Shown: positions 1 to 33,677 of the stretch, piece by piece
Position numbering within the stretch: position 1 is the stretch's first letter
How the letters are laid out: every line of letters starts with the position of its first letter
From: an uncultured Bacteroidota bacterium
Lineage (GTDB): Bacteria; Bacteroidota; Bacteroidia; 2-12-FULL-35-15
Assembly: GCA_903847205.1 (NCBI GenBank)
Contig: CAINDA010000002.1
Location: forward strand, 1 to 64,000
Length of the DNA stretch: 64,000 nucleotides
Direction: 5' to 3'
Made by a program: the position numbers and the translations under genes
Notes under the pieces: model-generated
What the model saw: the letters and a program-made list of their open reading frames with translations, nothing else
Told to the model about the DNA's origin: nothing
Database searches by the model: none

Positions 1-2711
1 GGCGATGAATAAGTATGATTGGGGTTCTGAACAAGGCCTGATGGACTGCCGTCACCAAAATTCCATATCCTTCCTGCAATGCTGCCGCTTGAAACAATGG
101 ATGAATCATAGAAATTCATTACCTGCTCCAAACATACATTGTTAAAACTGAAATTCGGAACAGGCATTGGATAAACAACTATCGAATCATGTAAAGTATC
201 CGCACAGCCGAGATTTGAGGAATGTGTAATCAATGTAATGTTGTAAGTTCCGGGAGCGCCGTACAGATGATTTGGACTCCATGCCGTTGTATTTAAACCA
301 GAAGCATCGCCAAAATTCCACGACCAGTTTGAAATGGTTCCCATAGATGGGCTTAAGGATGTATTGGTAAATGAAGCAGAGTCTGTCAAACAGGCGTTGG
401 GGAATGTGAAAGCGCTCACGGGCCTGTCAAACGTTTGTACTGAAGCAGTAAATGCATTGGAACAGCCGTTAATAGTTGTTGCTGCTAAAATAACCGCGTA
501 TGTTCCCGAAGCAGTATAATAATGGCTGGGGCTCTGTAAAATGCTTGAAGCGCTGCCATCCCCAAACACCCATAAATTATGGATTATAGAGGATGATGTA
601 TCAACAGTTGAAGTATTAATAAAATGCATTGAATCACCAAAGCAAACGTTACTGTAGGTGAATCCTACAACGGGATTGTAATAAACCTTCACTGGTTTTG
701 TAATTGAATCTAAACAGCCGCTGCTTGAAGTAACTACTAATTTAACATTATATGTTCCTGAGTTTGCATACATATAACTTGGATTGATGCTTGTGTTCAC
801 TGCGCTGTTATCCCCGAAATACCAGCTACGCGAAACAATACTGCCTGTGCTCGAATCGGCAAATACAGTTGACTGATTGCGGCATACGGAGCTCGCGCTG
901 AAATTTGCTCTTGGCAGACAGTTTACTCTCACTGTTTTTTGAGTACTGTCCTTACATCCATTGTTCGACAGCGCAATTAACTTCACTCTGAATGTATCGC
1001 AGACAGCATAAGTATGAGAAATGTTTTGCAAAACAGAATAGTTTCCGTCGCCAAAATTCCATTTCCATGAACTGAGAGCTCCGCCTTGAGGCAGGGTAGA
1101 GCTGTCGGTAAACACCATTGGTTTTCCAAGGCATACCTCAGGAGAAGTGAAATTAACAACAGGTTTGCCTGAAATATGTATTGTTTTAAAAATGGAATCT
1201 TGCTGCGACAAACAGCCGTCAGCATAGGCAGTTACAAGTGAAACTATATAAGTTCCAGAATCCGCATAAACATGTTTCGTGTTTTTCTGATAGGCTGTTG
1301 CTGTATCGCCGAAATACCATTTCCATGAAGTTGGTACATCTGATGCATCGCCGGCAAAACTTATTGTATCCCCATTGCAGGCTGGCTGAGGGTTTACAGC
1401 CATTGTCTGCTGCTGCAGGTTTCTTATTCTGGTGCCGCCCAGATAGCCGTATGATTCAATACTTCCAAAGCCGTAAGCAATGGAATTAAAACCGCTGTCA
1501 GCCGCAAGCGTGTGACTGCCCACAGCAACAGTACTTTGTGAATAAGAGTATAGGGGGTTGGCAGGCACAGGATTAAAAACTACCGGAGCTCCATCCAGCA
1601 GGAAACTGCCTATGTCAGCGGTTTTCATTACGGCATTAATATATTCTCCGGTAATGTTTTGTTCGGGAGAAGAATAGAGAAGCACATTATTGATTGCCTG
1701 TTCAACAGGGCTGAGAATGATCATCAGAGGATCTCCCAGATTACCATCACAATTTTGTGTCCGCGCATATTGGGCAAGTGTAATAGGTTTGTCAGCACTG
1801 ATATATGCTGGAACAATTAATAAGGTATCGAAGTACTGTGTTTGATTCAAAGAAACTGCCGCCCCGTTAATTGTTACTGTTGTACCATTAGATCGGGCCA
1901 TCACGCGGAACATGTCTCCCACACGGGTTTTAAAGGGAGATGTAACAAAGTTTTTCCCCCAGGTGTTGGGAGGATACATCTGTTCGTATAAATTGTCTCC
2001 GCTGCTTGCACCTCCGCATCCAAGCGATGTCCAGGTGCTGCCGGCAAATACAGCCAGCTTTTTACAGCTGTCAGTATTGAGTGCGAGAATCTTGCTTCCG
2101 GTAAGGTCAGTATGAGACTGTACCTGATAAACTTCTCCCCGCTGCAGGGTAACAACAAAAGGCACATTGGCGGCATGTCCGCCAAGAGTATTTGCCGTTG
2201 GGGTTATTTCAACTTTCGAACTATCGTCTGAAGCTGCAATCAAAAACTCCGATTTTTCCGAGCCTTCCTGCGTAAAGCACATCGCATAATATTCTTTTCC
2301 TAATACCTGGGTGGGAAGAAGCAAAGTGGCGTCTGAACGGGCACTTGCATATATATGTGCATAGGCCGCCACACTGTCATTTGAAGTAATATGAATTCCT
2401 TTTTGCTGAATACAGTCGGAGCAGCCAACGTAAGCTGTTGCAGAAGGAACCTGAATAATAGTAAATGTATTTGCAGTAATAGTAAACGGCATCGACCAGC
2501 CCTGAAGCGGCACAGAAACTACCCCGGAAGTATTTACTGTTGAGGATATATACAGCTTAAAGTTGGAACCAGCCCCATCAATATGCCCCATGTGGCCGAC
2601 CCAAAAATCTTTACCGAGATTAGAAAAAACCTGGGAAAGTATTTTATCGGGACAAGAGATTAAAATCACAAAACATAAAACGGATGCAAAAAATATTTTT
2701 CCTTTTCTCAT
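1..2711 (-). CDS. T9SS-type PKD-repeat surface protein with IgGFc-binding head (C-terminus outside window)
   Basis: The reading frame is open from an ATG at 2711 to the window edge, 903 codons, so the C-terminus is missing. The N-terminus is a signal peptide with a hydrophobic core at residues 5-20. An LISC string could be read as a lipobox, but cleavage after the following LSQ looks more natural. GKDFWVGHMG then begins a segment (about residues 30-330) resembling the IgGFc-binding N-terminal domain, including AHIYASARSDATLLLP. From about residue 435 six PKD modules follow, each with W-x-FGD and a Cys near its start (VCLGKP, VCRNQS, VCFGDS, ACLTDS, VCLEQV). Module order matches the four paralogs upstream, so a type B T9SS sorting domain is expected beyond the edge. 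It is probably an exported adhesin. A 134-bp gap separates it from the next gene. Confidence 0.85.
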   Translation of the reverse strand, partial: MRKGKIFFASVLCFVILISCPDKILSQVFSNLGKDFWVGHMGHIDGAGSNFKLYISSTVNTSGVVSVPLQGWSMPFTITANTFTIIQVPSATAYVGCSDCIQQKGIHITSNDSVAAYAHIYASARSDATLLLPTQVLGKEYYAMCFTQEGSEKSEFLIAASDDSSKVEITPTANTLGGHAANVPFVVTLQRGEVYQVQSHTDLTGSKILALNTDSCKKLAVFAGSTWTSLGCGGASSGDNLYEQMYPPNTWGKNFVTSPFKTRVGDMFRVMARSNGTTVTINGAAVSLNQTQYFDTLLIVPAYISADKPITLAQYARTQNCDGNLGDPLMIILSPVEQAINNVLLYSSPEQNITGEYINAVMKTADIGSFLLDGAPVVFNPVPANPLYSYSQSTVAVGSHTLAADSGFNSIAYGFGSIESYGYLGGTRIRNLQQQTMAVNPQPACNGDTISFAGDASDVPTSWKWYFGDTATAYQKNTKHVYADSGTYIVSLVTAYADGCLSQQDSIFKTIHISGKPVVNFTSPEVCLGKPMVFTDSSTLPQGGALSSWKWNFGDGNYSVLQNISHTYAVCDTFRVKLIALSNNGCKDSTQKTVRVNCLPRANFSASSVCRNQSTVFADSSTGSIVSRSWYFGDNSAVNTSINPSYMYANSGTYNVKLVVTSSSGCLDSITKPVKVYYNPVVGFTYSNVCFGDSMHFINTSTVDTSSSIIHNLWVFGDGSASSILQSPSHYYTASGTYAVILAATTINGCSNAFTASVQTFDRPVSAFTFPNACLTDSASFTNTSLSPSMGTISNWSWNFGDASGLNTTAWSPNHLYGAPGTYNITLITHSSNLGCADTLHDSIVVYPMPVPNFSFNNVCLEQVMNFYDSSIVSSGSIAGRIWNFGDGSPSGLVQNPNHTYSS

Positions 2712-2845
2712 TAATCTATCTTATTGAACTCATACTAATCTTGAAGAGACAAAAAACTTCAAAACGTTGCATTTATGACTCAACCTTTTGAAACAGTGTA
2801 ATAAACTTATTTTAAAATTAAGATTCGATTTTTATCAAATCAATT

Positions 2846-5800
2846 TTATCTAACCAATGTCACAGCACCTTTATAAACATGTTTCTGCCTTTTAATATCA
2901 GTAACTGTTATTGAATAAACGTATGTATCTCTCTGCGAGGTTTCAGTTCCATGGTTTGCTGTGCCGTCCCAGCCTTTATTGATGTCATCAGAATAAAAAA
3001 TTAAATTTCCCCACCGATCGAATATCATCATCTCATATTCTTTTATAAAAATACCTTTGCCTGTAAATGTATCATTTATACCGTCGTCATTGGGAGTAAA
3101 AGAATTTGGAATATAAAACACAAAATCCGGTTCAATTATAATTGTGTGATGTATACTGTCGAAACAGCTGTAACGAGTGGATGTAACAAGTGTTATTTTA
3201 TACGTTCCTGTATCGGCATACGTATGCGGTAAAGGATGTTCAATTGAAGTTGTATCATTTCCTCCGAAATTCCAAAGCCAATAATCAGCTCCTGTAGAAA
3301 TATCTGTTAATGAAATTACAGGATTTACAATACTTGTACTTTCCGGTAAAGCAGTAAAACCTGCAACAGGAGCCGGATACACGGTGATAAAATGAGGTTT
3401 TGTTTTTGTGCTACTGCATCCGCTGTCGGAAGTTACTGTGAGTGTTACGTTTATAATACGCGGCGCAAAAACTGAATCATTAGTATAACAATGCTGAGGC
3501 GTCAGTCCGGTTCCTGATGAACTTCCATCGCCGAAATTCCAGCTCATTGCAGTGTTTACGCCGGATGCTATGGCTGAAGCATTTTGAAAAGTAATGCAGA
3601 GCGGTTCGCATCCCGCACTGTCACTGCTTGTAAAAGCTGGAACAGGATTTGGATTTACTGTCATTATTTTAACGACCGAATCAACACATCCGAAATTAGA
3701 AGTGATAAAAAGCTGAACAGGATAACTTCCGGAAGACGCATATAAATGAGAAGTATTCTCAGTTGTACCAAGCGGACTGCTGTCGGAATAATTCCAGCGC
3801 CAGCTGTGTATTGTATCTGTTGTTGCAATAAAAGAAGAATCATTAAACAGCATTACAGTTCCTTTACATACATCAGAAGCTGCTATTAGGGCATGCGGAA
3901 GCGGATGAACTACAGCGGTTTTAACGATACTGTCCTTACATCCAAAACTGCTGGTTATAATCAATGATACATGGTAGGATCCGGGAGAAGCATACAGATG
4001 GCTCGGATTGGTATTTCCATTCGGGAAGGTGCCGTCGCCGAAAGTCCAAGAATGAGAAGCAATGCTTCCTACAGCAATTGAAGAAGAATCATAAAAATTC
4101 ATCGGCTGGTTTAAGCAGACATTCCGAAAACCGAATCCTGCAACAGGCATAGGATATACAGTGATACTGTCTTTAACCGTATCCGCACAGCCAAGGCCTG
4201 ATGAGCGTGTGATAAGAGTAATATGATAAATGCCGGGAGAAGCATAATGATGAACCGGGCTCCAGGTGCTGGTATCAGCAAGACTGCCGTCGCCGAAATT
4301 CCAGCTCCATCGGGCGGTACTTCCCATTAGCGGTGTTGTAGTAGTGTTGCTGAATACTTCAGAGCCAGACAGGCAGATATTACTTTTGTTGAAGGACGAC
4401 TGCGGTGCATCATAGGCCTTTACAGTATGTGTTGATGCATCGGAACATCCGTTAGCAGTACTGCTTAATAAAGTAACCGTATAGGTTCCTGACTGAATAT
4501 AATAGTGAGAAGGGCTGAATGCACTGCCTGTAGGCCCAGAATCACCGAATACCCATAAGTAAGAAGAGAGTGATGCCGGCGGATTTACAGTGCTCGTATT
4601 TGTAAAACGCAGACTGTCGCCGAAACAAACATCAACATGAGTGAATTCAGCCACAGGGTTGTAATAAACCTGCACTGGCTTTGCAACGGTGTCTGCACAG
4701 CCGAAATTATTATTTACAATCAATGCTGCATTATACATACCTGCAGCAGCATATAACCTAGAAGGATTCTGAAAAATGCCTGCCGAGCTTCCATCACCGA
4801 AATCCCAGTTCCAGAAATTGATAATTCCTGCCGAAGTAGTTGAACTATCCGTAAACTGCGTAGGGACGCCCTGACAGACTTTTGTACTGCCGAATTTTGC
4901 AATAGGAAGAGGGTGAACAACAACTACAGCGCTTCCGCTTTGAGGCTGTGAGCAGGCTCTTGAGCCGGCATCCTTTACCCTCAGCAGTGTGTAAGGATAT
5001 GTTCCGGCAGTTCCTGAAGGTACTGTTATGTTCACGCTGTTTCCAGTGCTGACAATGGTCTGCACTGCTCCCCCGTTGATATTATAAGTAAAGGTATAGG
5101 GTGCAGTACTGCTGGAACCTGTTAAAGTAATAACAGGCGCAGGAGCGTTTTTGCAAACTGATGCTGTTCCGCTGATTAGGGCTGTGGGAAGCTGGTCCAC
5201 CTCCACTGTAACGCTCTGCACAGCTGATAAGCAGGATTTACTGTCCATCGCAGTTATGCTGTACGTGGCTGTGTTCATAGGTGAAACAGTATTAACAGCA
5301 CCGTTATGAAATGGATTCCATGTGTAAGTATATCCTCCCGGATTTCCGCCGTGCGCAAGGGCTGTCAGCGTACTGCTTAATCCGGCACAAATGGTATCAG
5401 CCGGAATAGGATCAATAAATACCAGCGAGGGCTGGCTGAATGTAACAGATGTGTCTGCTGTACAGGCATGGGAATCAGTAACAGTGCAGGTGTACGAGCC
5501 TAATGCTAAATTTACGGCTCCAGCGGAAGTCTGTACAGGGCTTGTGTTCCAGGAATAGGTATAAGGAGATGTTCCGCCAGTGGCTGTAACAGTCGCCGTT
5601 CCGTCAGCGCCGGCAAAACAGCTGATGGGCGTCTGCGAAGGAGAAGCTCTCAATACAGCCGGTTCAGTAAGAATAATGTGTGCCCTGACTGAGCAGCTGT
5701 CGGCATCTAAAACAGTAACAATATAAGCGCCTGCCCTTAGCCCTGAAGCAGTATCATTTGCCTGAGGGGGCGAAGTATTCCAGGAATACCTGTAGGGCGG

Positions 5801-7897
5801 TGTACCGCCGGAAACATTAACAGAAGCTGAACCATTGTTAAAACCAAAGCAGGCTGGATTATGAAGCAGATGATCGGCATTTGTTATAATGTTTGTGTCA
5901 CTTATTATTTTAAGAGGAGTGGTTTGTATAACAGTTACACTGTCAATATGCGACTGACAGAAGGCATCATTTACGGTATAGGTATAGGTTCCTGCAGTTA
6001 AGTTTGTCGCTGCTGCCGTTGTTTGTCCGCCTGGCTGCCAAAGATAGCTGTAAGGAAGAGTACCGCCGTTTGCCAAAATATGCGCTGTTCCCGGCTTACA
6101 GGAAACATTGGTTGAAACTGCTGAAGCAGCTAAATGAGGGGGAAATGGACAGGTAGGTCCGAAATTGCCAACAAAACTTTGTCCGCAAACTAAAAGATCC
6201 CCATTACCGGCAAGCGTAATATCGTATACAATGTTGGGTGCAGCGATGGAAGAAACAGGATTGAGAAGCATATCATACTTTTCTATTGTACTCATAGTTC
6301 CTACATAAATGTTTCCGCAATAATCAAAAGCGATACCGCTGCAGTTATTTGCTGTGCCATTAGGGACAGAAACACTGTTAACCAAAGTGAGCGTACTTTT
6401 AAGAAACCTGCGTAATTCGAGCCCGTCATATATATATAAATACGGGCCGCTTATTGTAATGGCGTTATACCCGCTTGCAGCTGCGCGCACATTGGAATAT
6501 CCTGTTATACAAAAGGCAGGAGTGGTAACTAAAGACAATGCAGGAGTAAAATCAGCATTTGTTTTACGCAATATACATGGAGATGTACCATAATGTAATG
6601 AATAGATATCGCCGTTACAATCGGTTGCAATAGCCCATGTATCGGAAGGGTAGCTGACTGTGCTGCCCATAACTCCAGTTGCTGTATCAATTTTTGTAAG
6701 ACTGCTCGCACCAAAGTTACCACCCATTGCAAGAATGGTTTTTGATCTATTAAAGCTAAGCCGCCAGTTTTCCTGTCCTTCGCTTACTGAATAAATTACA
6801 GAACCTGCACTGCTTAGTTTTGTAACTTTCCCGGGGATCCCATCTGAATAATAAATACTTCCCGAATTAGCAGCAGCAATGGCACCGTAATAAGAGCAGC
6901 TATAATTGTGTGACCATACCAGAACTCCTAGAGAAGTATATTTCTGAACCTCGTAATTACCTACCCCGCTTGTACCGCCATTTACATAAACATTTCCAAT
7001 TGAATCCTCTTGTAGATCGCATGCAATATTCGGGGCAGGCAATGCAGGGACAATGATCCATGGATCGATAATCAGATCTTCAGAAAGAGCAGGCGTATTT
7101 GTGCTTACGGCAATTTCAACATGGTTTCCCTGAAGAATGTATTTGGCAGGAATTGAATTGCTTTGCGTATTTGCAGAAGGTGCTTTATCGATTAGACTGC
7201 CTAATATGCCATCCATTTTCAAATTTCCCTGCTCATCTATAAAAAATTTTTTTGGACCGCTTATACTGTAGGTTATTTTAGGAATATTATATCCGGCGCG
7301 GACAATAAAGCGATATTTGATGCCTCCGTTTTCAGGGAATTCAAATTCTGCATCTACACCTTCATAAATATTTGAATAGTAAAGTTTTTTAAAGGCTGAA
7401 ACATGATCATATTGGCTATTATCGGAGTATCTTCCAAAAGTATAATAGCTGCTTTCTTTTTCTTTAGCACTAATATGCATGTTAGGGTTGTTATTCACCC
7501 ATTGCATATTAACAATTTCCCATCTTGTCTCCGGCCTTTTGCTATCGGCTTCATCTTTCTGGTCTTCTTCTTCCTTGTCGGTTTTTTCTGTTTTAGAAAA
7601 CAGAAAGGTTATTCCGGTGCTTGTAAAATAGGCTTCAAATTCCGCGTTATTTACAGCATACAATATCTTCCCTGGGAAGGATATTTTTTTCTCATCTAAA
7701 CTTTTTTTAAACTGCCCCTGCTCTTCAATGAATACTTTGTTTTCAAATGGAGCTGTGATAAATGTCCTTTTACCTTTTGAGGATAAAGCCGATTCCCCCT
7801 TACCCGATTGGCCCAGAGCATAGGAAATATTCCATATCAGGCTGGACCAAATGAATAGAATAGCAGCAACAGATTTAAATATTTCAGAGGTTTTCAT
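2846..7897 (-). CDS. Giant PKD/SprB-repeat protein with T9SS type B (gliding motility-associated) sorting domain
   Basis: 1683 aa. Signal peptide (about 1-30), then a DUF7948-like head (about 40-265) with EEQGQF and YEGVDAEFEF. This head is interrupted by an acidic/lysine-rich stretch near 108-125. A propeller-like segment follows (about 270-590; EDSIGNVYVNGG, CGNIYVG). SprB-type repeats occupy about 590-960 (GGTPPYRYSWN, GGTSPYTYSWN). Seven PKD modules occupy about 995-1585, each with a W-x-FGD-like core. The C-terminus (about 1590-1683) is a typical CHU_C/type B sorting domain: YIPNSFTPNDDGIND, FDRWGNLIFYSDD, final YKGAVTLVR. Known family behaviour implies export by T9SS and surface display; an adhesin or gliding role is inferred. 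The start lies 3 nt after the stop of the upstream paralog, so the two are surely co-transcribed. It has the most SprB repeats in the set. Confidence 0.92.
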   Translation of the reverse strand: MKTSEIFKSVAAILFIWSSLIWNISYALGQSGKGESALSSKGKRTFITAPFENKVFIEEQGQFKKSLDEKKISFPGKILYAVNNAEFEAYFTSTGITFLFSKTEKTDKEEEDQKDEADSKRPETRWEIVNMQWVNNNPNMHISAKEKESSYYTFGRYSDNSQYDHVSAFKKLYYSNIYEGVDAEFEFPENGGIKYRFIVRAGYNIPKITYSISGPKKFFIDEQGNLKMDGILGSLIDKAPSANTQSNSIPAKYILQGNHVEIAVSTNTPALSEDLIIDPWIIVPALPAPNIACDLQEDSIGNVYVNGGTSGVGNYEVQKYTSLGVLVWSHNYSCSYYGAIAAANSGSIYYSDGIPGKVTKLSSAGSVIYSVSEGQENWRLSFNRSKTILAMGGNFGASSLTKIDTATGVMGSTVSYPSDTWAIATDCNGDIYSLHYGTSPCILRKTNADFTPALSLVTTPAFCITGYSNVRAAASGYNAITISGPYLYIYDGLELRRFLKSTLTLVNSVSVPNGTANNCSGIAFDYCGNIYVGTMSTIEKYDMLLNPVSSIAAPNIVYDITLAGNGDLLVCGQSFVGNFGPTCPFPPHLAASAVSTNVSCKPGTAHILANGGTLPYSYLWQPGGQTTAAATNLTAGTYTYTVNDAFCQSHIDSVTVIQTTPLKIISDTNIITNADHLLHNPACFGFNNGSASVNVSGGTPPYRYSWNTSPPQANDTASGLRAGAYIVTVLDADSCSVRAHIILTEPAVLRASPSQTPISCFAGADGTATVTATGGTSPYTYSWNTSPVQTSAGAVNLALGSYTCTVTDSHACTADTSVTFSQPSLVFIDPIPADTICAGLSSTLTALAHGGNPGGYTYTWNPFHNGAVNTVSPMNTATYSITAMDSKSCLSAVQSVTVEVDQLPTALISGTASVCKNAPAPVITLTGSSSTAPYTFTYNINGGAVQTIVSTGNSVNITVPSGTAGTYPYTLLRVKDAGSRACSQPQSGSAVVVVHPLPIAKFGSTKVCQGVPTQFTDSSTTSAGIINFWNWDFGDGSSAGIFQNPSRLYAAAGMYNAALIVNNNFGCADTVAKPVQVYYNPVAEFTHVDVCFGDSLRFTNTSTVNPPASLSSYLWVFGDSGPTGSAFSPSHYYIQSGTYTVTLLSSTANGCSDASTHTVKAYDAPQSSFNKSNICLSGSEVFSNTTTTPLMGSTARWSWNFGDGSLADTSTWSPVHHYASPGIYHITLITRSSGLGCADTVKDSITVYPMPVAGFGFRNVCLNQPMNFYDSSSIAVGSIASHSWTFGDGTFPNGNTNPSHLYASPGSYHVSLIITSSFGCKDSIVKTAVVHPLPHALIAASDVCKGTVMLFNDSSFIATTDTIHSWRWNYSDSSPLGTTENTSHLYASSGSYPVQLFITSNFGCVDSVVKIMTVNPNPVPAFTSSDSAGCEPLCITFQNASAIASGVNTAMSWNFGDGSSSGTGLTPQHCYTNDSVFAPRIINVTLTVTSDSGCSSTKTKPHFITVYPAPVAGFTALPESTSIVNPVISLTDISTGADYWLWNFGGNDTTSIEHPLPHTYADTGTYKITLVTSTRYSCFDSIHHTIIIEPDFVFYIPNSFTPNDDGINDTFTGKGIFIKEYEMMIFDRWGNLIFYSDDINKGWDGTANHGTETSQRDTYVYSITVTDIKRQKHVYKGAVTLVR

Positions 7898-7900
7898 TTT

Positions 7901-10900: not shown

Positions 10901-12325
10901 AAGAACATTAGAAGCTGCAACACCGGAATAACCAAAAGTTACATGGAGAGAATAAATATCGCCGTTGCAATCCGTTGCAAGACCTCTTGTTTCGGCGCCA
11001 TATATAATTTCATTGCTTACCGCACCTGTATTGGTGTTTAACTTGCACAAATTATTTGAGCCTGGGTCAACAAAATAACCGCCTTCCGACAATATTGTTT
11101 TAGAGTAATTAAACGCCAGCCTCCATTCTTCAACTAAACCGCCAAACGACCACAACTGAACACCTGTGCTGTCCAATTTTTGCCGTTTACCAGCATTGTA
11201 CCCGCCTACTATATAAACATTGCCGGGGTTATCAACTGCAATATCGCCCATCAAAACTGCATAGGTAATGTATGTCCAAAGCACTGTACCCGCGGAATTA
11301 TATTTCTGTACCTGCCAATTAGTATTATTTCCAATAATAAAAACATTGCCGATGGAATCTTCCTGTATGTCAAAGGCTTTGTTTACACTGGGGAAGCTGG
11401 TGTTTGTAATCCAGGGATCAATAACTATTCCCTCAGGGGAAGAAACACTGTTATCTAAAAATTTAAATTCAACCTTATTTCCAGTAAGATCATATTTTAC
11501 AGGAATATTTGTATGTGAAGCTGCAGAAAAGGCGTTAGGAGCATGATCAAGAATATGCCATGGAGAGCCTGAACCAAATGAATTGAATTTGCTTATGAGA
11601 TTCAAGTTTCCTTTTTCATCGATACTTAATTTTTCTAATCCATCCCATTGAAAAGATATTAAAGGAACAACAGCGTTGGGCTGCACTAAAAATTTATATT
11701 TTATTCCTCCATTTTCAGAAAATTCAAATTCTGCATCTACTCCGGGATAAAGGTTTGAATATTTTATTTTTTTATAAGCCGGAACATGATTGAAGGAGCT
11801 ATTGTCATCAAATCCCCCGTAATTGTAGTATTCGTTCTCTTTTTCCTCCGGAATTAATACTACAGCCGGATCAGCATTAAGCCAATTCATATCCGCCGTA
11901 TGCCAAATGGTTTCGATATCTCTTTCACCTTCATCCCGTTCTTTTCTTGCCGACCCTTTTCCTTCTCGTTCACGTTCTTCTCTTTTCTTTTCCCAAAAGC
12001 CCTTTTTTAATTTTTTTCTTTCCGGAAATTGAAAGATGATACCACGAGTGGTAAAGTATGCATTAAACTCCGCATTCTCAATTCCATAAAGTACTGGCTT
12101 TGTAAAGGGTGTTTTTGTTTCAGCAGCATGTTTACTAAACTGCCCCCGCTCTTTAATAAAAACATTGTTCTGCATCGGCGTGATGAGAGGCATTCTGTGA
12201 GCTGTCTGCGCAGCAGCTATCGGCCGCAAATTTAAAATAAACAGAAAAACAAATGCACTACTCCACAAACCTCTCCATAGTGGAAGGAAATGGCAGCAGT
12301 AATATTTATTTTTTTTAGTTTCCAT
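7901..12325 (-). CDS. Giant PKD-repeat protein with DUF7948-like head and T9SS type B sorting domain
   Basis: 1474 aa and colinear with the gene downstream. Signal/anchor region about 1-40 (hydrophobic FVFLFILNLRPIAAAQ). DUF7948-like head about 45-325 (KERGQF, YPGVDAEFEFSENGGIKYKF) with a very charged K/E/R insert near 105-135. Propeller-like segment about 330-630 (EDSIGNVFIIG, CGNIYAG). Two SprB-like repeats about 635-780 (GGTPPYAYLW, GGRGPYSYFW). Seven PKD modules about 785-1370. CHU_C sorting domain about 1377-1474 (YIPNAFTPDGDGVND, FDRWGNLIFF, YKGTVTLVR). A secreted, surface-attached role follows from the sorting domain; the ligand is unknown. It lies 64 nt downstream of the next paralog, in the same presumed transcript. 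Confidence 0.92.
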   Translation of the reverse strand: METKKNKYYCCHFLPLWRGLWSSAFVFLFILNLRPIAAAQTAHRMPLITPMQNNVFIKERGQFSKHAAETKTPFTKPVLYGIENAEFNAYFTTRGIIFQFPERKKLKKGFWEKKREEREREGKGSARKERDEGERDIETIWHTADMNWLNADPAVVLIPEEKENEYYNYGGFDDNSSFNHVPAYKKIKYSNLYPGVDAEFEFSENGGIKYKFLVQPNAVVPLISFQWDGLEKLSIDEKGNLNLISKFNSFGSGSPWHILDHAPNAFSAASHTNIPVKYDLTGNKVEFKFLDNSVSSPEGIVIDPWITNTSFPSVNKAFDIQEDSIGNVFIIGNNTNWQVQKYNSAGTVLWTYITYAVLMGDIAVDNPGNVYIVGGYNAGKRQKLDSTGVQLWSFGGLVEEWRLAFNYSKTILSEGGYFVDPGSNNLCKLNTNTGAVSNEIIYGAETRGLATDCNGDIYSLHVTFGYSGVAASNVLKKTFANFTPAGSVGTGFLLSEAQPAATAYGLNPAYSAASTYQVFNAIAVNGPYVFIFDGATIRRINKTTLAIINSVAVPNGTTAMCGGIAADLCGNIYAGTLSGIAKFDSSLTYVSAISAPDAVYDIILGNNGDLLACGNGFVGSFSTNCTAPPPLIAAATSINASCKGGSATVIPVGGTPPYAYLWEPSGQTTATAVNLTAGTYTYIVTDPFCHSFRDTITVNQTPPLTIAAGLSNVISPGVISNESCPNSLNGSAVVTASGGRGPYSYFWNTVPVQNTQTAVGLSAGRYLATVVDADTCRDTISIVITRKLAPIAGFSNTTVCKGNTTQFTDSSIPSSGTLSTWKWDFGNSTALNTNQSPSCTYLNGGNYNVTLIVNNSFGCADTITKSVQVYYKPTAGFTFTNICLHDTMHFLNTSSVDPNASIAHYSWTFGDAAATDTLQNPDHYYTSYGTFNVRLLTTTADMCADTSIIPVKTFDAPHSMFTYNNVCLFDSAKFTNTSLSPSMGSMANWSWDFGDGSPLNTAVWSLRHLYAVPGNYQVTLITHSSNLGCPDTLKDSITVYPMPLADFNFTDVCLHQAVNFLDASTVSSGTVTGWSWSFGDGITLNTSPNPAHLFILPGTYGVSLIASTNRGCKDTVAKNAIVHPLPAAIFKRANVCDGAAMSFTDLSTIAAPDAIPHWTWSFGDGTYSSVPSTSHLYLSSGVYPVQLLVVSNFGCADSVTKISFVNPNPIAKFTSSDTIGCAPLCMTFQNLSSISGGNISSWAWSFGDGSPAGSSQDISHCYRNDSVYSPNLYTPSLKVTSDSGCVTIVTKNNYITTYPKPKADFKLLPETASFINPLISITDLSAGADFWNWNFGDLQTSVIANPLSHTYGDTGTYLVTLITSTQFGCFDTTHQSVTIEPDFLFYIPNAFTPDGDGVNDTFTGKGIFIKEFEMSIFDRWGNLIFFSDDINKPWDGRANHGNEIAQSDVYIYSIKVTDIKRQKHLYKGTVTLVR

Positions 12326-12389
12326 TTATAGTTTTTCAATTCATATTCTCAAACTAATGAATCTTTTATTCGGGCAGGTGTAATTTTTT

Positions 12390-14450
12390 TTATCTCAGCA
12401 ATGCCACTTTCCCTTTATAGCTGTGTTTTCGTTTATTAAAATCTGTAATTTTTATTGAATAAATATATTCATCCCTCTGCGCTGTTTCAGTTCCATGATT
12501 TGCTCTGCCATCCCAGCCAATGTTTTTATCATTGGAATAAAAAATCAGGCTGCCCCAGCGGTCGAATATCATCATTTCATAATCCGTTATAAACATGCCC
12601 TTCCCTGCAAAGGTATCGTTTATGCCGTCACCGTCGGGTGTAAAGGCATTCGGAATATAAAATACAAAATCAGGTTCAATAACAATTGTTTTATAAGCTG
12701 TATCAGCACAATTGAATAAAGTTGATGTTATCAGTGTAATAACATAAGTACCAGTATCTGTATATGCGTATGATGCAGGATTGTGTAAAAAAGTTGTATC
12801 ACTGTCACCAAAATTCCAATGCCAGAAATTTGTGCCTGCAGATAAATCAGTTATTGATATAACAGGGTTGATTATTGATGCTGAGTTGGGCTGTGCGGCA
12901 AAAAGCGCAGCAGGTTTAGGGTAAACTGTAATGTAATTATTTTTTGTAAAGATTGTTACACATCCGCTGTCAGAGGTTGCTTTTAATGTGATATTGAATG
13001 ACACAGGAGAAAAAACAGAGTCATTGCTGTAACAATGACTTGGATCCTTTAAAATACTTGTTCCGCTGCCGATACCGAAAGTCCATAACCATGCGGTGTT
13101 TGTGCCTGTTAAAACGGATGATAAATTCTGAAAATTTACACATACCGGTTCACAGCCGACTGTATCATCCCCTTTAAAATTTACCACCGGGTTAGGATTG
13201 ACCACACTTGTTTTTATAGTAGAATCAACACATCCGAATTTAGAAACAATAAATAATTGCACAACAAAAGAACCCGGAGATGCATACAGATGCGTGCTGT
13301 TTTGATTTGTATTAAATACAGTTCCGTCACCGAAATTCCATCGCCAGTATTGTATTGTATCAGTTGCAAGGATATGTGAAACATCATTAAAATGAACTGC
13401 AGTACCGCTGCATACACTGGCTGTATTGAATTGCGCCGCAGGCAGTGCATGAACCACCACATTTTTTATAACGGTATCTTTGCATCCATCGCTGCTGTTC
13501 ACAATCAGTGTTACATTATAATTTCCCGGCAGACTGTAAGTATGACTTGGATTTTGAAGGGCAGCCACAGGCGTTCCGTCGCCAAAGCTCCATGACCAGC
13601 CTGCAATGTTTCCGCTTGAAACAGTTGAAGAATCGTAGAAATTCATCGGCTGATTTAAACAAACGTTTCTGAAAACAAATTTTGCGGCCGGCAGAGGAAA
13701 CACAGTTATAGGGCTTTTCAGCGTGTCGGGGCAGCCGAGATTGGAAGAATGGGTAATTAAAGTAACCTGGTAATTTCCTGGAGAAGCATACAGGTGATAG
13801 GGGTTTCCGGAGGTTGTATTTAAGGGTGAACCATCCCCGAAATCCCAAGACCAGCCAGCTATACTGCCCATTGAAGGACTGATTGAGTTATTAATGAAAT
13901 GCGCTGAATCATGCAGACAAATACTGCTTGATGCAAAAACTGCCGCCGGCGCATCAAACGTATTTACAGAAATGTTTGCCGCTGCGGAACATCCATCCGA
14001 AGTTGTAATTACTAATGTAACCTGGAAACTTCCGGAATGTGAATAGTAATGATCCGTATTTTGAGAACTGCCTGAGGGGCTTGCATCACCATATATCCAG
14101 AGGTAATTTGATATTGAAGAAGGTAAATTTACAATTGAAGTATCTGTAAAATGTATGGTATCTCCATAGCAGACATCGCTGTGGATAAAGCCTGCAGAAG
14201 GATTATTAAAAACCGCGATCTGATGTATAATGGTGTCTGCGCAGGAATTAGCGCTGTTTACAATTAATGATACATTATAATTTCCAGGGCTGCCATAGAT
14301 ATGAGAAGTGCTATTAACATTGGCACTGGCATTGTCTCCAAAATTCCAGCTCCAGTTGGTAATTACACCCGGGGTGATAATTGTTGAAGTGCTGTTAAAA
14401 GGCACAGCTGTTCCATCGCATTTATTGGTGAAGGTGAAGCCCGAGGCTGG
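12390..14450. repeat. Colinear duplicated PKD-stalk coding block, copy A
   Basis: Matching landmarks in this block and in 15578-17638 all lie exactly 3188 bp apart: the stop codons (12390/15578), a ccacacttg string (13201/16389), and ttgttgaagtgctg (14381/17569). There is therefore no net indel over about 2 kb. Between roughly 13085 and 13465 the two copies are nearly identical, with uninterrupted identical runs of about 60-75 nt. Confidence 0.85.
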
Positions 14451-15560
14451 TTTAGGAAACACTGTTACGTTTTGGCTAAGAGAATCTTTACAGCCGAACG
14501 TATTTGTAACTACTACTTTGTAATTGGCTGTTGATGCAGGCGTTACGGCTATAGCCGCATTTGCCGACCCTGTGCTCCAAGCATACGTTCCTCCTCCCAA
14601 GGCTGTAAGCGTAGTACTTTCATTTACACAAAGCAGTGTATCGCCCGTTATAGAAATTAATGGCGGTTGACGTACTGTTACATTAACAGCAGACGAATCC
14701 TTAAAACCGCTTGAAGTAGTAACAACTACATGGTAGACTGCCGTTAATGCTGGACTTATTGTTATAGAGGAATTAGTTGAACCGGTATTCCATAAATAAG
14801 TACCAGTGCCGGTGGAAGTAAGTGTAGTGCTTTCGCCTTTGCAAATAATAGTATCACCTATGATTGAAGCCGGACATCCATTAGCTAATGACCCTGGAGT
14901 ACAAGGACATTGATCATTAATATCGGCAGTACCATCGCCATCGCCATCTGATAAAGAACTTGCAGTTGTATTTGCAACTAACAATAAACCATAAGGTCCG
15001 CCTCCATTATATACTAAAACATCAATGTAATTAATACCTGCAACCCAGGGACCAATCAAAGTAATATTAAGCTGTCCCCCTGCCATAAAGTTTCCGCCAT
15101 TGATACCAGTGCTATTTCCATTAATAAAAACATCAGAGATGCCATTATCAACATATCCTGCAAAATATAAAATATAGTTTCCTGCTATGGTTACACTGTT
15201 ACCATTACAATCCGGCGGCAAATCAATTGTTAACCTATAATAACGGTATCCAGCTTGACCGGTGCACGGGGTATTGTCAGAACCTGTTATCCAATTTCCA
15301 TTGTTTACGGGAGAGGGAAGAGCCGCTGGATTAACCCAGGCGCCGGGTGCACAATTATTATTAATCAATGCGGGATTATAGCTGAGCCCAATTGGATTAG
15401 GAGGGCTGCCAGTATACCAAGAAGAAATAAGCCATAGCGGATCAAGAGTGTTTGTTGCTCCCTGCCCAGTTGACAATGTTGCTGGATTTGGAAACATTTG
15501 AGCCGCCCCATTTCCAATCAAAGTAATTATTAAAACAGTTACTAGTACTAATTTTTTCAT
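12390..15560 (-). CDS. PKD-repeat protein with lectin-like/thrombospondin-3-like head and T9SS type B sorting domain
   Basis: 1056 aa. A clean signal peptide ends near GNGAAQ (residue 20). The head differs from its neighbours: a beta-rich segment (about 25-195; YRYYRLTIDLP, DVFINGNSTGINGG) that looks like a galactose-binding or lectin-like fold, then DGDGDGTADINDQCPC (about 203-218), a thrombospondin type-3-like calcium-binding motif. Two short Ig-like repeats follow (ICKGESTTLTSTGTGTYLW, LCVNESTTLTALGGGTYAW). Seven PKD modules occupy about 370-950 and the CHU_C sorting domain about 957-1056 (YIPNAFTPDGDGIND, FDRWGSLIFYSND). From about residue 370 to the end it aligns without net indel with the upstream gene at 15578-19984. 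The gap to that gene is 17 nt. Ca2+ binding and carbohydrate binding are inferred. Confidence 0.9.
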   Translation of the reverse strand: MKKLVLVTVLIITLIGNGAAQMFPNPATLSTGQGATNTLDPLWLISSWYTGSPPNPIGLSYNPALINNNCAPGAWVNPAALPSPVNNGNWITGSDNTPCTGQAGYRYYRLTIDLPPDCNGNSVTIAGNYILYFAGYVDNGISDVFINGNSTGINGGNFMAGGQLNITLIGPWVAGINYIDVLVYNGGGPYGLLLVANTTASSLSDGDGDGTADINDQCPCTPGSLANGCPASIIGDTIICKGESTTLTSTGTGTYLWNTGSTNSSITISPALTAVYHVVVTTSSGFKDSSAVNVTVRQPPLISITGDTLLCVNESTTLTALGGGTYAWSTGSANAAIAVTPASTANYKVVVTNTFGCKDSLSQNVTVFPKPASGFTFTNKCDGTAVPFNSTSTIITPGVITNWSWNFGDNASANVNSTSHIYGSPGNYNVSLIVNSANSCADTIIHQIAVFNNPSAGFIHSDVCYGDTIHFTDTSIVNLPSSISNYLWIYGDASPSGSSQNTDHYYSHSGSFQVTLVITTSDGCSAAANISVNTFDAPAAVFASSSICLHDSAHFINNSISPSMGSIAGWSWDFGDGSPLNTTSGNPYHLYASPGNYQVTLITHSSNLGCPDTLKSPITVFPLPAAKFVFRNVCLNQPMNFYDSSTVSSGNIAGWSWSFGDGTPVAALQNPSHTYSLPGNYNVTLIVNSSDGCKDTVIKNVVVHALPAAQFNTASVCSGTAVHFNDVSHILATDTIQYWRWNFGDGTVFNTNQNSTHLYASPGSFVVQLFIVSKFGCVDSTIKTSVVNPNPVVNFKGDDTVGCEPVCVNFQNLSSVLTGTNTAWLWTFGIGSGTSILKDPSHCYSNDSVFSPVSFNITLKATSDSGCVTIFTKNNYITVYPKPAALFAAQPNSASIINPVISITDLSAGTNFWHWNFGDSDTTFLHNPASYAYTDTGTYVITLITSTLFNCADTAYKTIVIEPDFVFYIPNAFTPDGDGINDTFAGKGMFITDYEMMIFDRWGSLIFYSNDKNIGWDGRANHGTETAQRDEYIYSIKITDFNKRKHSYKGKVALLR

Positions 15561-15577
15561 GTTTGATTCCGACCGTT

Positions 15578-17638
15578 TTACCTCACCAATGTGACACTTC
15601 CTTTATAGCTGTGTTTTAATTTATTGTAATCTGTAATCTTTATAGAATAAACATATACATCTCTCTGTGAGGTTTCTGTACCGTGATTGGCAGTGCCGTC
15701 CCAGCCTTTATTGATATCATTGGTATAAAAAATTAAATTGCCCCAGCGGTCAAATATCATCATTTCGTAATCTTTTATAAAAATCCCTTTGCCTGAAAAA
15801 ACATCATTTATGCCGTCATCATTGGGAGTAAAAGAATTTGGTATGTAAAATAAAAAGTCGGGCTCAATAACTATTGTTTGAAAAGTACTGTCGATACAAT
15901 TAAATAAAGTAGAAGCTTTAAGTGTTATTATGTAAGTGCCGGTATCGGCAAAGGTATGCGGAGATGGATTGTGTACAGAAGTTGTATCGCCGTTTCCGAA
16001 ATTCCAGTGCCAGAAATCTGTTCCTGTAGATAAATCCCTGACTGATATTATTGGATTTATTATTGATGCCGATTCAGGAAGTACTGTAAAAACCGCATTA
16101 GGATTGGGATATACAGCGATATAATTATTTTTTGACAGTGTTGTTACGCATCCGCTGTCGGAAGTTGCTTTTAATGTAACATTGAAAAACATTGCAGAAA
16201 AAACTGAATCATTGTCATAACAATGACTTGGGTCTTTTAAAATACTTGAACCATTACCGCTTCCGAAGGTCCATAGCCATGCAGTGTTTGTGCCTGTTAA
16301 AACGGATGATAAATTCTGAAAATTTACACATACCGGTTCACAGCCGACTGTATCATCACCTTTAAAATTCACCACCGGGTTAGGATTAACCACACTTGTT
16401 TTTATAGTAGAATCAACACATCCGAATTTAGAAACAATAAATAATTGCACGACAAAAGAACCGGGAGCTGCATACAAATGCGTGCTGTTTTGGTTTGTAT
16501 TAAATACAGTTCCGTCACCGAAATTCCATCGCCAGGATTGTATTGTATCAGTTGCAAGAATATGAGATACATCGCTAAAATGAACCGCAGTACCGCTGCA
16601 TACACTGGCTGTGTTGAATTGCGCCACAGGCAGTGCATGAACCACAACATTTTTTGTAACAGTATCTTTACATCCATCACTGGTTGTAACAATTAAAGAG
16701 ACAGTATATGTTCCCGGCAAGATGTAAGTATGATTTGGATTTTGAAGGGTAACCAAAGCTGTGCCGTCGCCGAAGCTCCATGACCAGCCGGCAATACTTC
16801 CGAGCGAAACGGTTGAGGAATCAAAGAAATTCATAGGCTGATTTAAACAGACATTTCTAAAAACAAATTTAGCGGCCGGCATAGGAAACACTGTTATAGG
16901 TCTTTTCAGCGTATCGGGACAGCCGAGATTTGAAGAATGCGTAATTAAAGTAACCTGATAATTTCCGGGAGAAGCATAGAGGTGATGCGGGTTTCCGACA
17001 GTTGTATTCAAAGGTGAAGTGTCGCCGAAATTCCATGACCAGTTTGAAATGGCTCCCATTGTTGGATTGGCGGATGCATTTACAAACACAGCGGAATCAA
17101 ATAAACATGTATTGCTGAAAGTGAATGCACTGGACGGAGCATCAAATACATTTACTGGAACTGCAAGTGCATTGGAACAGCCGTCGGCAGTGGTTGCTAC
17201 TAAGGTAACATTGTAATTTCCATGACTTGTATAATCATGAACAGGGCTCTGCAAAATGCTTGTCGGTCCGTTATCGCCAAAATCCCACAAATAACCAGCT
17301 ATCACCGCAGGTAAACTTACCGTTGATGTATTTGCAAAACGCATGGTATCTCTAAAGCAAACATCACTATGCATGAAGCCTGCAGCAGGATTATTGAAAA
17401 CCTTAACCTGCTGCATAATAGTATCTGCACAGAAATTGCTGCTGTTAATTATAAGCGTCACATTATAGTTTCCCGGGCTGCTATATGTATGTGATGTACT
17501 GCTGCCTGAAGCGATTGTGTTGTCTCCAAAATTCCAATTCCACTGCGCGATTACGCCTGGTGTGTTAATTGTTGAAGTGCTGTTAAAAGGCACTGCTGTC
17601 CCGTTGCATTTATTGGTGAAAGTGAAGCCGGCTAAAGG
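15578..17638. repeat. Colinear duplicated PKD-stalk coding block, copy B
   Basis: Partner of the block at 12390-14450, at a constant offset of 3188 bp. It codes for PKD modules 1-7 plus the T9SS sorting domain. Identity is highest around 16270-16650. Sequence similarity ends where the different N-terminal heads begin. Confidence 0.85.
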
Positions 17639-19984
17639 TTTAGGATAAACTGTTACATTTTTACTGTTAGAATCTTTACAGCCATCGGTAGTTACTACTA
17701 ATAGGCTGACATTATATGTTCCGTCTGCAGCATACGTGTGAGCCGGGCTTTGCAGGATAGCAGAATTACCATCGCCGAATTTCCATGACCATGAATTGAT
17801 ACTTCCGTGATTAACACTTGAAGAATCAACAAGAAGCATCGATGACGGAGAGCATACATCATTAAAAGTAAACGCGGCTGATGTAGTAATGGAGGGTACA
17901 ACAATTTGAATAGAATCAATATTCGGTATAGGGCATTTGTTATCAGTGTAAACGCATTTATAAGTTCCGGGGGTTAAATTGCCTATGCTGTCCGTTGTCT
18001 GGGCCAGGGCTATATTGTTTTTTGACCAGGTATAGGTATAGTCCGGAACGCCGCCGCTCAAGTTCAGCTTAATATAACCATCTGCAAGCACCCCGCAGGA
18101 AGGCTGTACAACCTGCTGCGTTTGAAAAACACAGGGCGGAATTACAAATGCCAGTTCTGTTACATGCCCGGGTCCGCAGGCACTTATTGTCTGATTAAAA
18201 GAGTTAAAGGCTAAATCATATACAGCACCAGTTGTTGCTTTAAAGTCGACCTGGTTAAAATTCATGTCGTACATATAAACGCCGGTACTTGAACCAACAA
18301 ATATTTTTCCGCAGCTGGTAATATATATTCCGCCGTTTTGTTTATTCAATCCCCCTGGTACACTCACTTGTGTTAAAATTGTACCGTTTGTTTTATTTAC
18401 TTTAAATAAAGCGGCACCATCATAAATATAAAGGTTGTTGCCTAAAATGGTCATCCCGTTAAGGCCTTGCCCTAAGTTTCCCACTTTTGTATAATAGTTA
18501 GGGGTTACAAAATAGCCATAACCCCAATTACCAATTGCAGGATAGGTTGCTGCAATTGTATTGGAAGGTGTCCATTTATAAATTAAACTAACCCCGGCTT
18601 GATAGTCAGAAGCAATTGTATAAACATCGCCATTATAATCAATAACGCCGCAATGAGGATCCTGACAGCAAGTACCGCTTTGAGTATAACCGGTAAGAGC
18701 CCCGGTTGAAGTATTTATCCTTGCAAACCCCGTGGCACTATGCCGATAGCCTGTTAAAGACAAAACCTGGTGATTACATTCATTTAATACGAAACGCCAG
18801 CATTCATTAATTCCAAAACTGTCCCACAAAAAATTACCCGCAGAATCAACAGCACTGGCATCTCCCCTTGGATGAGAGCCCATGGTATTGAAAAAACAAT
18901 AGCCTCTGGAGTCGGTTAACATATCTCCGTAATACGGAGCAGAACCGCCCATTATATCAGTAGATGCAATCAAAATGCCAGTCGGCGAATATTTTTCCAA
19001 AATATAACCAGGGCTTGTTATATAACTGTTTCCGTATTGATCTACCCCGTTGTCTACAGGAGCAGCGGCCATAGTCGGGACTGTTACCCAGGGATCAATG
19101 GTCATCGGCTGATTGAAAGTAATCGCCCCGTTTTCATTTGCCAGAAGCGGATTTTTTTCTAATTTAAAGGAAACACTATTTTTGTTTAATACAAATCTGC
19201 AGGCTGTTTTTTGCTCCTTATTGTCTGTGGAGAAGCTGATAGGTGCATGGTCAATTATATCTCCTTGTATTGTTTTTATTACAATGCAGTCCTCCTTTAA
19301 TTTTATATTTTCTGCGCCATCGTAATATTGCTGTATCTGGCTTACATCTGCACCAGCAGCTATATATAAATTATATTTAAATCCTTCTTTCTCAGTAAAA
19401 AAATATTCAACATCAATGCCGTTGTAAAGATTTTTTATTTTTAGTTTCCCATACCCTTTGCAGTGCGCGGTGTAATTCTTTGGGACATTTTTGCATATCA
19501 CATATCCATAATCGGAGGTTTGTTCATCACCTGCTTCAATCACTGCATCGGAATTTGCATTTAGCCATTTCATACTTATGAATTGGGTTTCTTTTTTTTG
19601 CAATTCCATTTCACGACTTCGCTCCTCATCGGGATCTTCCTTCTCTTCCATTTTTTCTTTTGTCAAGAGCGATTTCGTAAAATAAAAAAGCACTTCATTG
19701 CGGTAAAAAAATATTTTTGCCCCGTTATCAATACAATAGCTGAAATTGTTTTTCGACGGCGGTAATTCCGATGCATACTGCTCTTTATTTTCTATGAAGA
19801 CTTTCCGTTCAAAAGGCTTTTTGCTCCAGTCGGCCTTACTATCAGTTTTTTCACCAAGTTCTTTCAACCTGCCTGTCAGATCCTGTGAGAATATAAGAAC
19901 CTGAGAAAAAAGGAGAATAGAAAAAAGGAGAAGTTTAGAGCGCAAATAAAACAGATATAACAAAGAATTAGGTTTCATTTGCAA
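15578..19984 (-). CDS. Giant PKD-repeat protein with DUF7948-like head and T9SS type B sorting domain; first gene of the cluster
   Basis: 1468 aa. N-terminal hydrophobic signal about 8-35. The DUF7948-like head, about 50-300, includes NKEQYASE and YNGIDVEYFF and carries an acidic insert near 108-130. Propeller-like segment about 300-620 (DQYGNSYITS, CGKIFVGSSTGVY). One SprB-like repeat about 625-695 (GGVPDYTYTWS). Eight PKD modules about 700-1360: one extra module in front of the seven shared with the paralogs. CHU_C sorting domain about 1368-1468 (YIPNSFTPNDDGIND, FDRWGNLIFYTND, YKGSVTLVR). It is the first of at least five same-strand genes with gaps of 17, 64, 3 and 134 bp, so a promoter just above 19984 is expected, though no clear -7 element was found. 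A surface adhesin role is inferred. Confidence 0.92.
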   Translation of the reverse strand: MQMKPNSLLYLFYLRSKLLLFSILLFSQVLIFSQDLTGRLKELGEKTDSKADWSKKPFERKVFIENKEQYASELPPSKNNFSYCIDNGAKIFFYRNEVLFYFTKSLLTKEKMEEKEDPDEERSREMELQKKETQFISMKWLNANSDAVIEAGDEQTSDYGYVICKNVPKNYTAHCKGYGKLKIKNLYNGIDVEYFFTEKEGFKYNLYIAAGADVSQIQQYYDGAENIKLKEDCIVIKTIQGDIIDHAPISFSTDNKEQKTACRFVLNKNSVSFKLEKNPLLANENGAITFNQPMTIDPWVTVPTMAAAPVDNGVDQYGNSYITSPGYILEKYSPTGILIASTDIMGGSAPYYGDMLTDSRGYCFFNTMGSHPRGDASAVDSAGNFLWDSFGINECWRFVLNECNHQVLSLTGYRHSATGFARINTSTGALTGYTQSGTCCQDPHCGVIDYNGDVYTIASDYQAGVSLIYKWTPSNTIAATYPAIGNWGYGYFVTPNYYTKVGNLGQGLNGMTILGNNLYIYDGAALFKVNKTNGTILTQVSVPGGLNKQNGGIYITSCGKIFVGSSTGVYMYDMNFNQVDFKATTGAVYDLAFNSFNQTISACGPGHVTELAFVIPPCVFQTQQVVQPSCGVLADGYIKLNLSGGVPDYTYTWSKNNIALAQTTDSIGNLTPGTYKCVYTDNKCPIPNIDSIQIVVPSITTSAAFTFNDVCSPSSMLLVDSSSVNHGSINSWSWKFGDGNSAILQSPAHTYAADGTYNVSLLVVTTDGCKDSNSKNVTVYPKPLAGFTFTNKCNGTAVPFNSTSTINTPGVIAQWNWNFGDNTIASGSSTSHTYSSPGNYNVTLIINSSNFCADTIMQQVKVFNNPAAGFMHSDVCFRDTMRFANTSTVSLPAVIAGYLWDFGDNGPTSILQSPVHDYTSHGNYNVTLVATTADGCSNALAVPVNVFDAPSSAFTFSNTCLFDSAVFVNASANPTMGAISNWSWNFGDTSPLNTTVGNPHHLYASPGNYQVTLITHSSNLGCPDTLKRPITVFPMPAAKFVFRNVCLNQPMNFFDSSTVSLGSIAGWSWSFGDGTALVTLQNPNHTYILPGTYTVSLIVTTSDGCKDTVTKNVVVHALPVAQFNTASVCSGTAVHFSDVSHILATDTIQSWRWNFGDGTVFNTNQNSTHLYAAPGSFVVQLFIVSKFGCVDSTIKTSVVNPNPVVNFKGDDTVGCEPVCVNFQNLSSVLTGTNTAWLWTFGSGNGSSILKDPSHCYDNDSVFSAMFFNVTLKATSDSGCVTTLSKNNYIAVYPNPNAVFTVLPESASIINPIISVRDLSTGTDFWHWNFGNGDTTSVHNPSPHTFADTGTYIITLKASTLFNCIDSTFQTIVIEPDFLFYIPNSFTPNDDGINDVFSGKGIFIKDYEMMIFDRWGNLIFYTNDINKGWDGTANHGTETSQRDVYVYSIKITDYNKLKHSYKGSVTLVR

Positions 19985-30497: not shown

Positions 30498-30552
30498 TGC
30501 ATTAATTTTAATAACATAAATATTGTTACGTGAATTTACGAATAAAAAAACT

Positions 30553-32841: not shown

Positions 32842-32878
32842 AAGAGCGGTGAAACAACTTCTTTTTGCCGCTCTTTTT
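32842..32878 (+). terminator. Rho-independent terminator of tatD
   Basis: Stem AAGAGCGG (32842-32849) with CCGCTCTT (32868-32875), an 18-nt loop, followed by TTT-A-TTTTA. It overlaps the stop codon of the convergent gene at 32877. Confidence 0.7.
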
Positions 32879-33347: not shown

Positions 33348-33677
33348 TTTTGTGCTTGTCAGCAAGGTTTTAATGTGAAAGAGCAGAATAATTGCCAATT
33401 GCTTTTCCTTTTTTTATCAGCTGTTAAAATAATAATAAAATCAAGTAATTGTATGTGAGATAAATCACATGAATGATTTAATTCTGTCATTGTCCTCTGC
33501 TTTTGCTCCAGAAGTTTTGGTTTCGACTTTAAAGCCTGAGTATGTTCAAGAAATGCATCAGGTCTGAAATTATTTTATTGTTAAAAATCTTTAAAATGCT
33601 TCATTTAGCAATGTAAAAAGTATTAATATTGTATCCGATATTTTCAATCAAAATTTAAACATTAAAAAACTAATTAC
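33348..33677. other. Divergent intergenic region with CRP-like palindrome
   Basis: 330 bp between the Imm5-like gene and the 116-aa gene. Apart from the TGTGA-N6-TCACA site at 33454-33469 nothing is recognised. Confidence 0.6.
33454..33469. promoter_or_regulatory. CRP/FNR-family-like operator (TGTGAGATAAATCACA)
   Basis: Perfect TGTGA-N6-TCACA dyad, extended by one more pair (A...T) on each side. It lies 107 nt upstream of the minus-strand gene start (33347) and 209 nt upstream of the plus-strand start (33678). The motif is the classic Crp half-site pair; which regulator would use it in this organism is unknown. Confidence 0.45.

Follow-up and report, generated by a model that had tools for sequence, protein, structure and literature searches.

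Five adjacent genes at the start of a Bacteroidota contig carry one ordered stalk of PKD modules under different N-terminal heads, which raises the question of how such an arrangement came about: were new heads placed on a standard stalk, or do heads and stalks have separate histories? The window, that is, the whole 64,000-nucleotide stretch of DNA analyzed here, corresponds to positions 1-64000 of contig C2 of genome G000 (5.49 Mb, 72 contigs).

A tandem array with an ordered stalk

The five-gene tandem array described in the first-pass annotation of this DNA is real, as the span 3-19984 is filled by five minus-strand open reading frames, P0005 to P0001. We divided the stalk by hand into seven modules (M1 to M7) and the CTD, and the resulting features are the following:

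15578..19984, minus strand: P0001 gene; DUF7948 plus propeller head, one extra M4-like PKD, core M1a-M7, type-B CTD
15860..17641, minus strand: P0001 core stalk M1-M7
15581..15859, minus strand: P0001 CTD
16106..16882, minus strand: P0001 M4-M6, tract shared with P0002 (81, 95, and 87% identical by module)
12390..15560, minus strand: P0002 gene; head without known family, Asp-rich TSP3-like string (by eye), core M1a-M7, type-B CTD
12672..14453, minus strand: P0002 core stalk M1-M7
12393..12671, minus strand: P0002 CTD
12918..13694, minus strand: P0002 M4-M6, partner tract of P0001 M4-M6
7901..12325, minus strand: P0003 gene; DUF7948 head, core M1b-M7, type-B CTD
8183..9961, minus strand: P0003 core stalk M1-M7
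7904..8182, minus strand: P0003 CTD
2846..7897, minus strand: P0004 gene; DUF7948 head, SprB repeats, core M1b-M7, type-B CTD
3128..4909, minus strand: P0004 core stalk M1-M7
2849..3127, minus strand: P0004 CTD
3..2711, minus strand: P0005 gene; IgGFc_binding head, two extra PKD-like stretches, M1b to partial M4
3..917, minus strand: P0005 stalk, M1 to partial M4

The gaps between these genes (134, 3, 64, and 17 bp) fit the earlier proposal that they form one operon, to which a scan for promoter-like and terminator-like sequences added nothing, the counts being no higher than the chance level. P0005 is truncated by the start of contig C2, which falls inside its stalk. At the end of another contig (G000:C43:42706-42867, in L027) we observed the end of a type-B CTD, 54 residues long and with 78% identity to the P0001 CTD, which runs off C43. 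This fragment may be the 3′ part that P0005 lacks, in which case C43 would adjoin C2. A contig start within a stalk is compatible with an assembly or binning artefact that chimerised repeats, an error the first-pass annotation had named as fatal to its reading. However, the same head types are found on stalks in more than one independent assembly, the three stalks closest to each other are 80-88% identical at the DNA level rather than identical throughout, and the assembly has a completeness of 100% and a contamination of 0.35%, so that we give this explanation hardly any credence.

Modules at the same position in different genes had a mean identity of 56.3% (54 module pairs), compared to 35.2% for different positions within one gene (87 pairs) and 35.8% when both gene and position differed (324 pairs); the partial M4 of P0005 was excluded from these averages. 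On a tree of the 32 modules of the window, position labels required the minimum of 6 changes (22.4 on average after shuffling), and hence the modules group by position rather than by gene, as had been predicted. M2, M5, M6, and M7 each formed one group with support of 98-100, and M3 (68/14) and M4 (85/81) did so with weaker support. Position 1 consists of two types that are separate on the tree, M1a (P0001 and P0002) and M1b (P0003-P0005). Moreover, P0001 has an additional M4-like PKD ahead of M1 (Pfam counts 8 PKD_4 stretches), and P0005 has two further PKD-like stretches ahead of its M1 (6 PKD_4 stretches). The claim of the same seven modules in order therefore holds by the tree for M2-M7 and has to be amended for position 1 and for the genes with extra modules; seven is a core number, not a fixed total. 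The truncated fifth copy follows the order as far as it is present, from M1b to the partial M4 at the start of contig C2. The module fingerprints noted earlier also appear in the translations: M4 contains VCLNQ or VCLHQ in the four complete genes and VCLEQ in P0005, and M6 contains GCEPVC, GCAPLC, or GCEPLC.

As for the proposed common T9SS anchor, all four complete genes end in a type-B sorting domain (CHU_C / TIGR04131), which scored 49-56 bits against a cut-off of 35; P0005 is cut before this point. A type-A T9SS protein (Por_Secre_tail) is encoded in the same window, at 29460-30602. At 32877-33398 there is an Imm5-like putative immunity protein, with no toxin found beside it among the genes scanned.

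The stalk family and its heads

A search of the window's own genome returned long stalk matches on many contigs. At least 27 genes of G000, on 13 contigs, bear the stalk end, and two weaker M6-M7-CTD genes found later stand outside this number. Using position-specific module profiles, we decoded 74 stalk-family genes across eight genomes; the loci were picked from the best matches, so the family counts are lower bounds. The full run M1-M2-M3-M4-M5-M6-M7-CTD was present in 46 of the 74, distributed as 15 in G000, 10 in G002, 9 in G023, 8 in G013, 2 in G022, and 1 each in G018 and G020, the last six genomes belonging to the same genus as G000. Twelve genes have a short stalk made of M4-M5-M6-M7-CTD alone, while longer stalks have blocks added ahead of the core, for example M4-M5 (3 genes) or M1-M5 (3 genes). 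Module repeats all precede M6, with one exception (5-6-5-6-7-C). Among the same-genus genomes lacking strong matches, one locus each was decoded in G006, G009, and G016, and none of these three was ordered.

Remoter Bacteroidota proteins contain long PKD chains, some with a terminal M6-M7-CTD. Among the ORFs listed for loci L048-L140 (four or more modules), only L061, a candidate contig of G018, showed the ordered M1-M7 code, and M6-M7-CTD was more widespread than that code. L062, in a contig titled Chitinophaga pinensis MAG, has the partial order M1b-M3-M1b-M3-M4-M5-M6-M7, an arrangement that perhaps represents an intermediate stage of the ordered stalk. PKD proteins of a similar kind also occur in contigs titled Saccharibacteria and Methanosarcina (L081 and L124), which are possibly binning errors.

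We clustered the heads of 68 of the 74 genes, excluding four whose 5′ end is open and two head stubs, and obtained 21 clusters, 8 of them singletons. Other heads on the same stalk, which the first-pass annotation had suggested looking for in related genomes, are thus found, and its view of a standard stalk and T9SS anchor under different heads is strongly supported. A Pfam scan of the heads of all 27 G000 genes and of 8 genes from other genomes identified, above the curated cut-offs, DUF7948, IgGFc_binding, NIDO, Laminin_G_3, SBBP, FG-GAP_3, ALK_LTK_GRD, and Lectin_C; choice_anch_L exceeded its cut-off in NCBIfam, and several heads had no match in the Pfam scan. For the window this agrees with the DUF7948 assignment of three genes and with IgGFc_binding in P0005, but not with the lectin-like label of P0002. 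The head of P0002 matched nothing in Pfam or NCBIfam, its predicted model was unusable (pLDDT 42.8), and its thrombospondin-3-like string is a by-eye reading only. The model of the P0001 head (mean pLDDT 74.8) matches beta-propeller structures, a predicted likeness of general fold that names no ligand. The names of some matched domains (Lectin_C, NIDO, and Laminin_G_3 among them) suggest binding, and binding or adhesion would be the probable role of the heads.

Head history and stalk history

The heads are the more conserved part of these proteins. Head identity exceeded stalk identity in 43 of 48 reciprocal-best head pairs, and the fourfold sites of these pairs have a median identity of 39%, near saturation. 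Because the heads remain alike despite such near-saturated sites, they look to be under purifying selection. Antigenic or phase variation, with tips that change on a constant stalk, would explain why one genome has many heads on one constant part, but under that explanation the heads should not be the conserved part, and we consider it extremely improbable.

Stalk sequences, on the other hand, tend to follow the genome, while head families are common to several genomes. We built a stalk tree of 70 of the 74 genes, dropping four that are cut at the 3′ end. Genome labels required 21 changes on it (minimum 7, shuffled mean 38.8), and head labels required 40 (minimum 19; the five shuffles listed out of 100 gave 42-44). 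G000 showed the clearest clustering by genome (6 changes, shuffled mean 21.2), and in G002 the effect was weak (13 changes against 15.2 when shuffled, a value as low being reached in 46/500).

The two histories can be compared directly in the 20 genes with DUF7948 heads. On the head tree the genomes are mixed like shuffled labels (12 changes vs 11.9), and the deep groups span genomes; the heads of P0001, P0003, and P0004 fall in three separate deep groups. On the stalk tree P0004 joins C24:344 across head groups, as do two G013 genes, two G023 genes, and three G000 genes, with support of 95-100 for these cross-group joins; two G022 genes of one head group are joined as well. Overall the genome label showed only slight clustering on this tree (10 changes vs 11.9 shuffled, as low in 14/200), and the P0001-type genes of G013 and G020 still pair. 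AU tests rejected holding head group 1 (p 1.3e-69) or head group 2 (p 4.7e-109) together on the stalk; these groups were defined on the head tree once both trees were known.

Pair statistics were computed on 64 genes, also leaving out G027. In 40 of the 48 reciprocal-best head pairs at least one partner had a closer, different-head stalk in its own genome. In a control with equal numbers of candidates, in which genomes with fewer than 5 genes were not targets, the nearest different-head stalk lay in the gene's own genome in 57 of 74 tests (10 skipped). Between genomes, the stalks had a median fourfold identity of 34% and never exceeded 54% (1493 pairs), while five same-genome stalk pairs reached 55-69%, four of them from different head clusters. 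Concerted evolution by gene conversion leaves paralogs within a genome more alike than orthologs. In the present family, paralogs are closer than orthologs beyond what the number of candidates would give for the stalks, but not for the heads.

These results bear on a simpler account, in which one seven-module gene was duplicated and its copies diverged, with ordinary shuffling of head domains now and then but no continuing recombination. It accounts for the grouping of modules by position. It also agrees with 26 of 84 directed tests (6.7 expected by chance), in which the head ortholog was still the gene with the best stalk, so that head-stalk linkage is partly kept. Nevertheless, head and stalk trees are in strongly supported conflict, and at fourfold sites same-genome stalks with different heads are younger than every between-genome pair. 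For the named cases (the C43/C59 stalks described below, the fourfold sites, and the AU test) plain duplication is largely refuted, and we regard it as improbable for the family. The first-pass annotation had therefore seen a true pattern with its direction reversed. It implied new heads on a standard stalk, whereas the heads are old, with their families found again in one genome after another, and many of the stalks beneath them appear to have been copied anew within a genome since the genomes split.

Stalk tracts shared under different heads

Two cases from G000 illustrate how stalks and heads part. The genes on C43 (head cluster 10) and C59 (an SBBP-like cluster) have unrelated heads, and their stalks are 84-95% identical in all eight parts, with 69% identity at fourfold sites. 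The C43 head shares 75% identity with the head of a G002 gene, and the C59 head shares 73% with the head of a G023 gene, yet the stalks of these two pairs are only 50-71% and 49-68% identical, respectively; the overall range for the stalks of C43/C59 head orthologs elsewhere is 45-74%. In the second case, the stalks of P0001 and P0002 (fourfold identity 65%) are 81, 95, and 87% identical in M4, M5, and M6, compared to 52% in M2 and 63% in M7. They share a 74-nt identical run, and fourfold sites agree in 63/89 positions within M4-M6 vs 53/102 elsewhere, a modest contrast (Fisher p 0.011). Particularly, in M5 the two paralogs agree at 27/32 fourfold sites, whereas P0001 and its G023 ortholog agree at 9/20, with no rise. 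This is a clear internal tract between diverged flanks. One G013 pair likewise has a clear conversion-type tract (69 nt). A screen for conversion tracts (300 shuffles) found 7 in 214 same-genome pairs and 3 in 200 between-genome pairs, a weak excess, and we used single cases alone from it.

The same conflict of histories would follow if the heads, and not the stalks, had moved: stalk genes would have been duplicated, and recombination at or near the head-stalk junction would have brought older heads onto the copies. Consistent with this, the DNA similarity of the stalks of C43, C59, and C24:344 spans from the junction to about 5 nt from the last sense codon, and a P0001-type head at C64:156411 sits on a short M4-M7 stalk that groups with other short stalks of G000. 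A single crossover, however, would not give the P0001/P0002 patch, which is internal and diverged on both sides. Moreover, the C59 head has not moved away from its upstream neighbors, because the genes upstream of it match those upstream of its G023 head ortholog (81-87% identical); the downstream neighborhoods are too rearranged for synteny to separate conversion from head exchange. We consider head exchange possible but rather unlikely, and conversion is probably the main route.

On balance, we find it somewhat probable that these are type-B T9SS surface proteins in which the heads are old and the stalks recombine inside a genome. According to this interpretation, the array would be part of a large family of type IX secretion system surface proteins with type-B C-terminal signals, each composed of an N-terminal head, an ordered PKD stalk, and a near-constant CTD. 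The heads would be old and inherited apart from the stalks, and the stalks would recombine among the gene copies of one genome by gene conversion or an equivalent exchange in the shared 3′ region, such that stalk sequence would partly track the genome instead of the head. The stalk would most likely keep various binding heads at a fixed distance from the outer membrane. We observed directly the module order, the size of the family, the variety of heads, the conflict of head and stalk histories, and one clear internal tract.

Secretion and anchoring

G000 encodes SprA (2568 bits), 19 PorP-like genes, and 86 type-B CTDs, the last two counted above the cut-off. Only 14 of the 86 CTDs have a PorP-like gene within 500 bp; all 14 are outside the stalk family, so that no PorP-like gene was found beside stalk-family CTDs at this distance. 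Conversely, the PorP-like genes at C28:96009, C28:78482, and C8:39369 are without a neighboring type-B CTD. Type-B proteins may anchor through binding PorP-like proteins (PMC9143113), and a shuttle common to three orphan type-B substrates is described for F. johnsoniae (PMC12618676). By analogy, the stalk family may use a few common PorP/SprF-like shuttles, with the common CTD allowing many proteins to be served by them. More tentatively, and with less confidence than in recombining stalks as such, we propose that each cell would display tens of proteins with old, separately selected heads on one recombining stalk-anchor unit, and that recombination would keep spacing and export compatible with the few common shuttles.

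Relation to known systems and implications

Modular T9SS surface proteins are already known. The closest comparison is with the SprB/SprF-type type-B substrates of F. johnsoniae (PMC9143113; PMC12618676), with which G000 shares type-B CTDs, SprA, and PorP-like genes; orphan substrates that share a shuttle are likewise known there, three of them (PMC12618676). Unlike the SprB/SprF arrangement, most type-B CTDs in G000 (86 above the cut-off vs 12 in F. johnsoniae) have no PorP-like neighbor, and one ordered stalk is common to many heads. The mosaic adhesive trimer (MAT) fibres of Bdellovibrio are likewise a repertoire of surface fibre proteins with diverse tips for which recognition of diverse targets is proposed (PMC10769870). 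MAT proteins are trimeric phage-like fibres (PMC10769870), while the proteins described here are PKD chains with a T9SS signal, and we claim no relationship. Compared with the concerted evolution of multigene families, homogenisation is seen here in the 3′ stalk, while the 5′ heads keep their own history. In the literature searched we found no description of an ordered stalk common to many conserved heads and homogenised within a genome.

The family offers a natural experiment on the features that the stalk of a T9SS surface protein has to retain, since order and anchor stay constant while the sequence is re-copied and the heads evolve apart. It is also a warning for annotation, as stalk similarity here is no proof of orthology or common function. 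If display on a single anchor is true, the system would be the reverse of antigenic variation, with heads that are conserved and a constant part that is rewritten. The family also makes it possible to test whether a single PorP/SprF-like shuttle could serve dozens of orphan type-B substrates, more than the three that share one in F. johnsoniae (PMC12618676).

Gene neighborhoods

The flanks of stalk genes are rearranged between genomes (G000:C59, G002:C1, G002:C16, G023:C939, and G023:C434), the flanks of one gene adjoining another elsewhere, and recombination between dispersed stalks could be the cause. Finally, an ORF of about 1130 residues lies beside short-stalk DUF7948 genes at L029:1085-4483, L021:11756-15145, and L149:14152-17517, loci in G000:C24, G000:C64, and G022:C86. 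These ORFs are 63-67% identical between genomes, and both copies in G000 are reprolysin-like metallopeptidases that end in a type-A T9SS tail.
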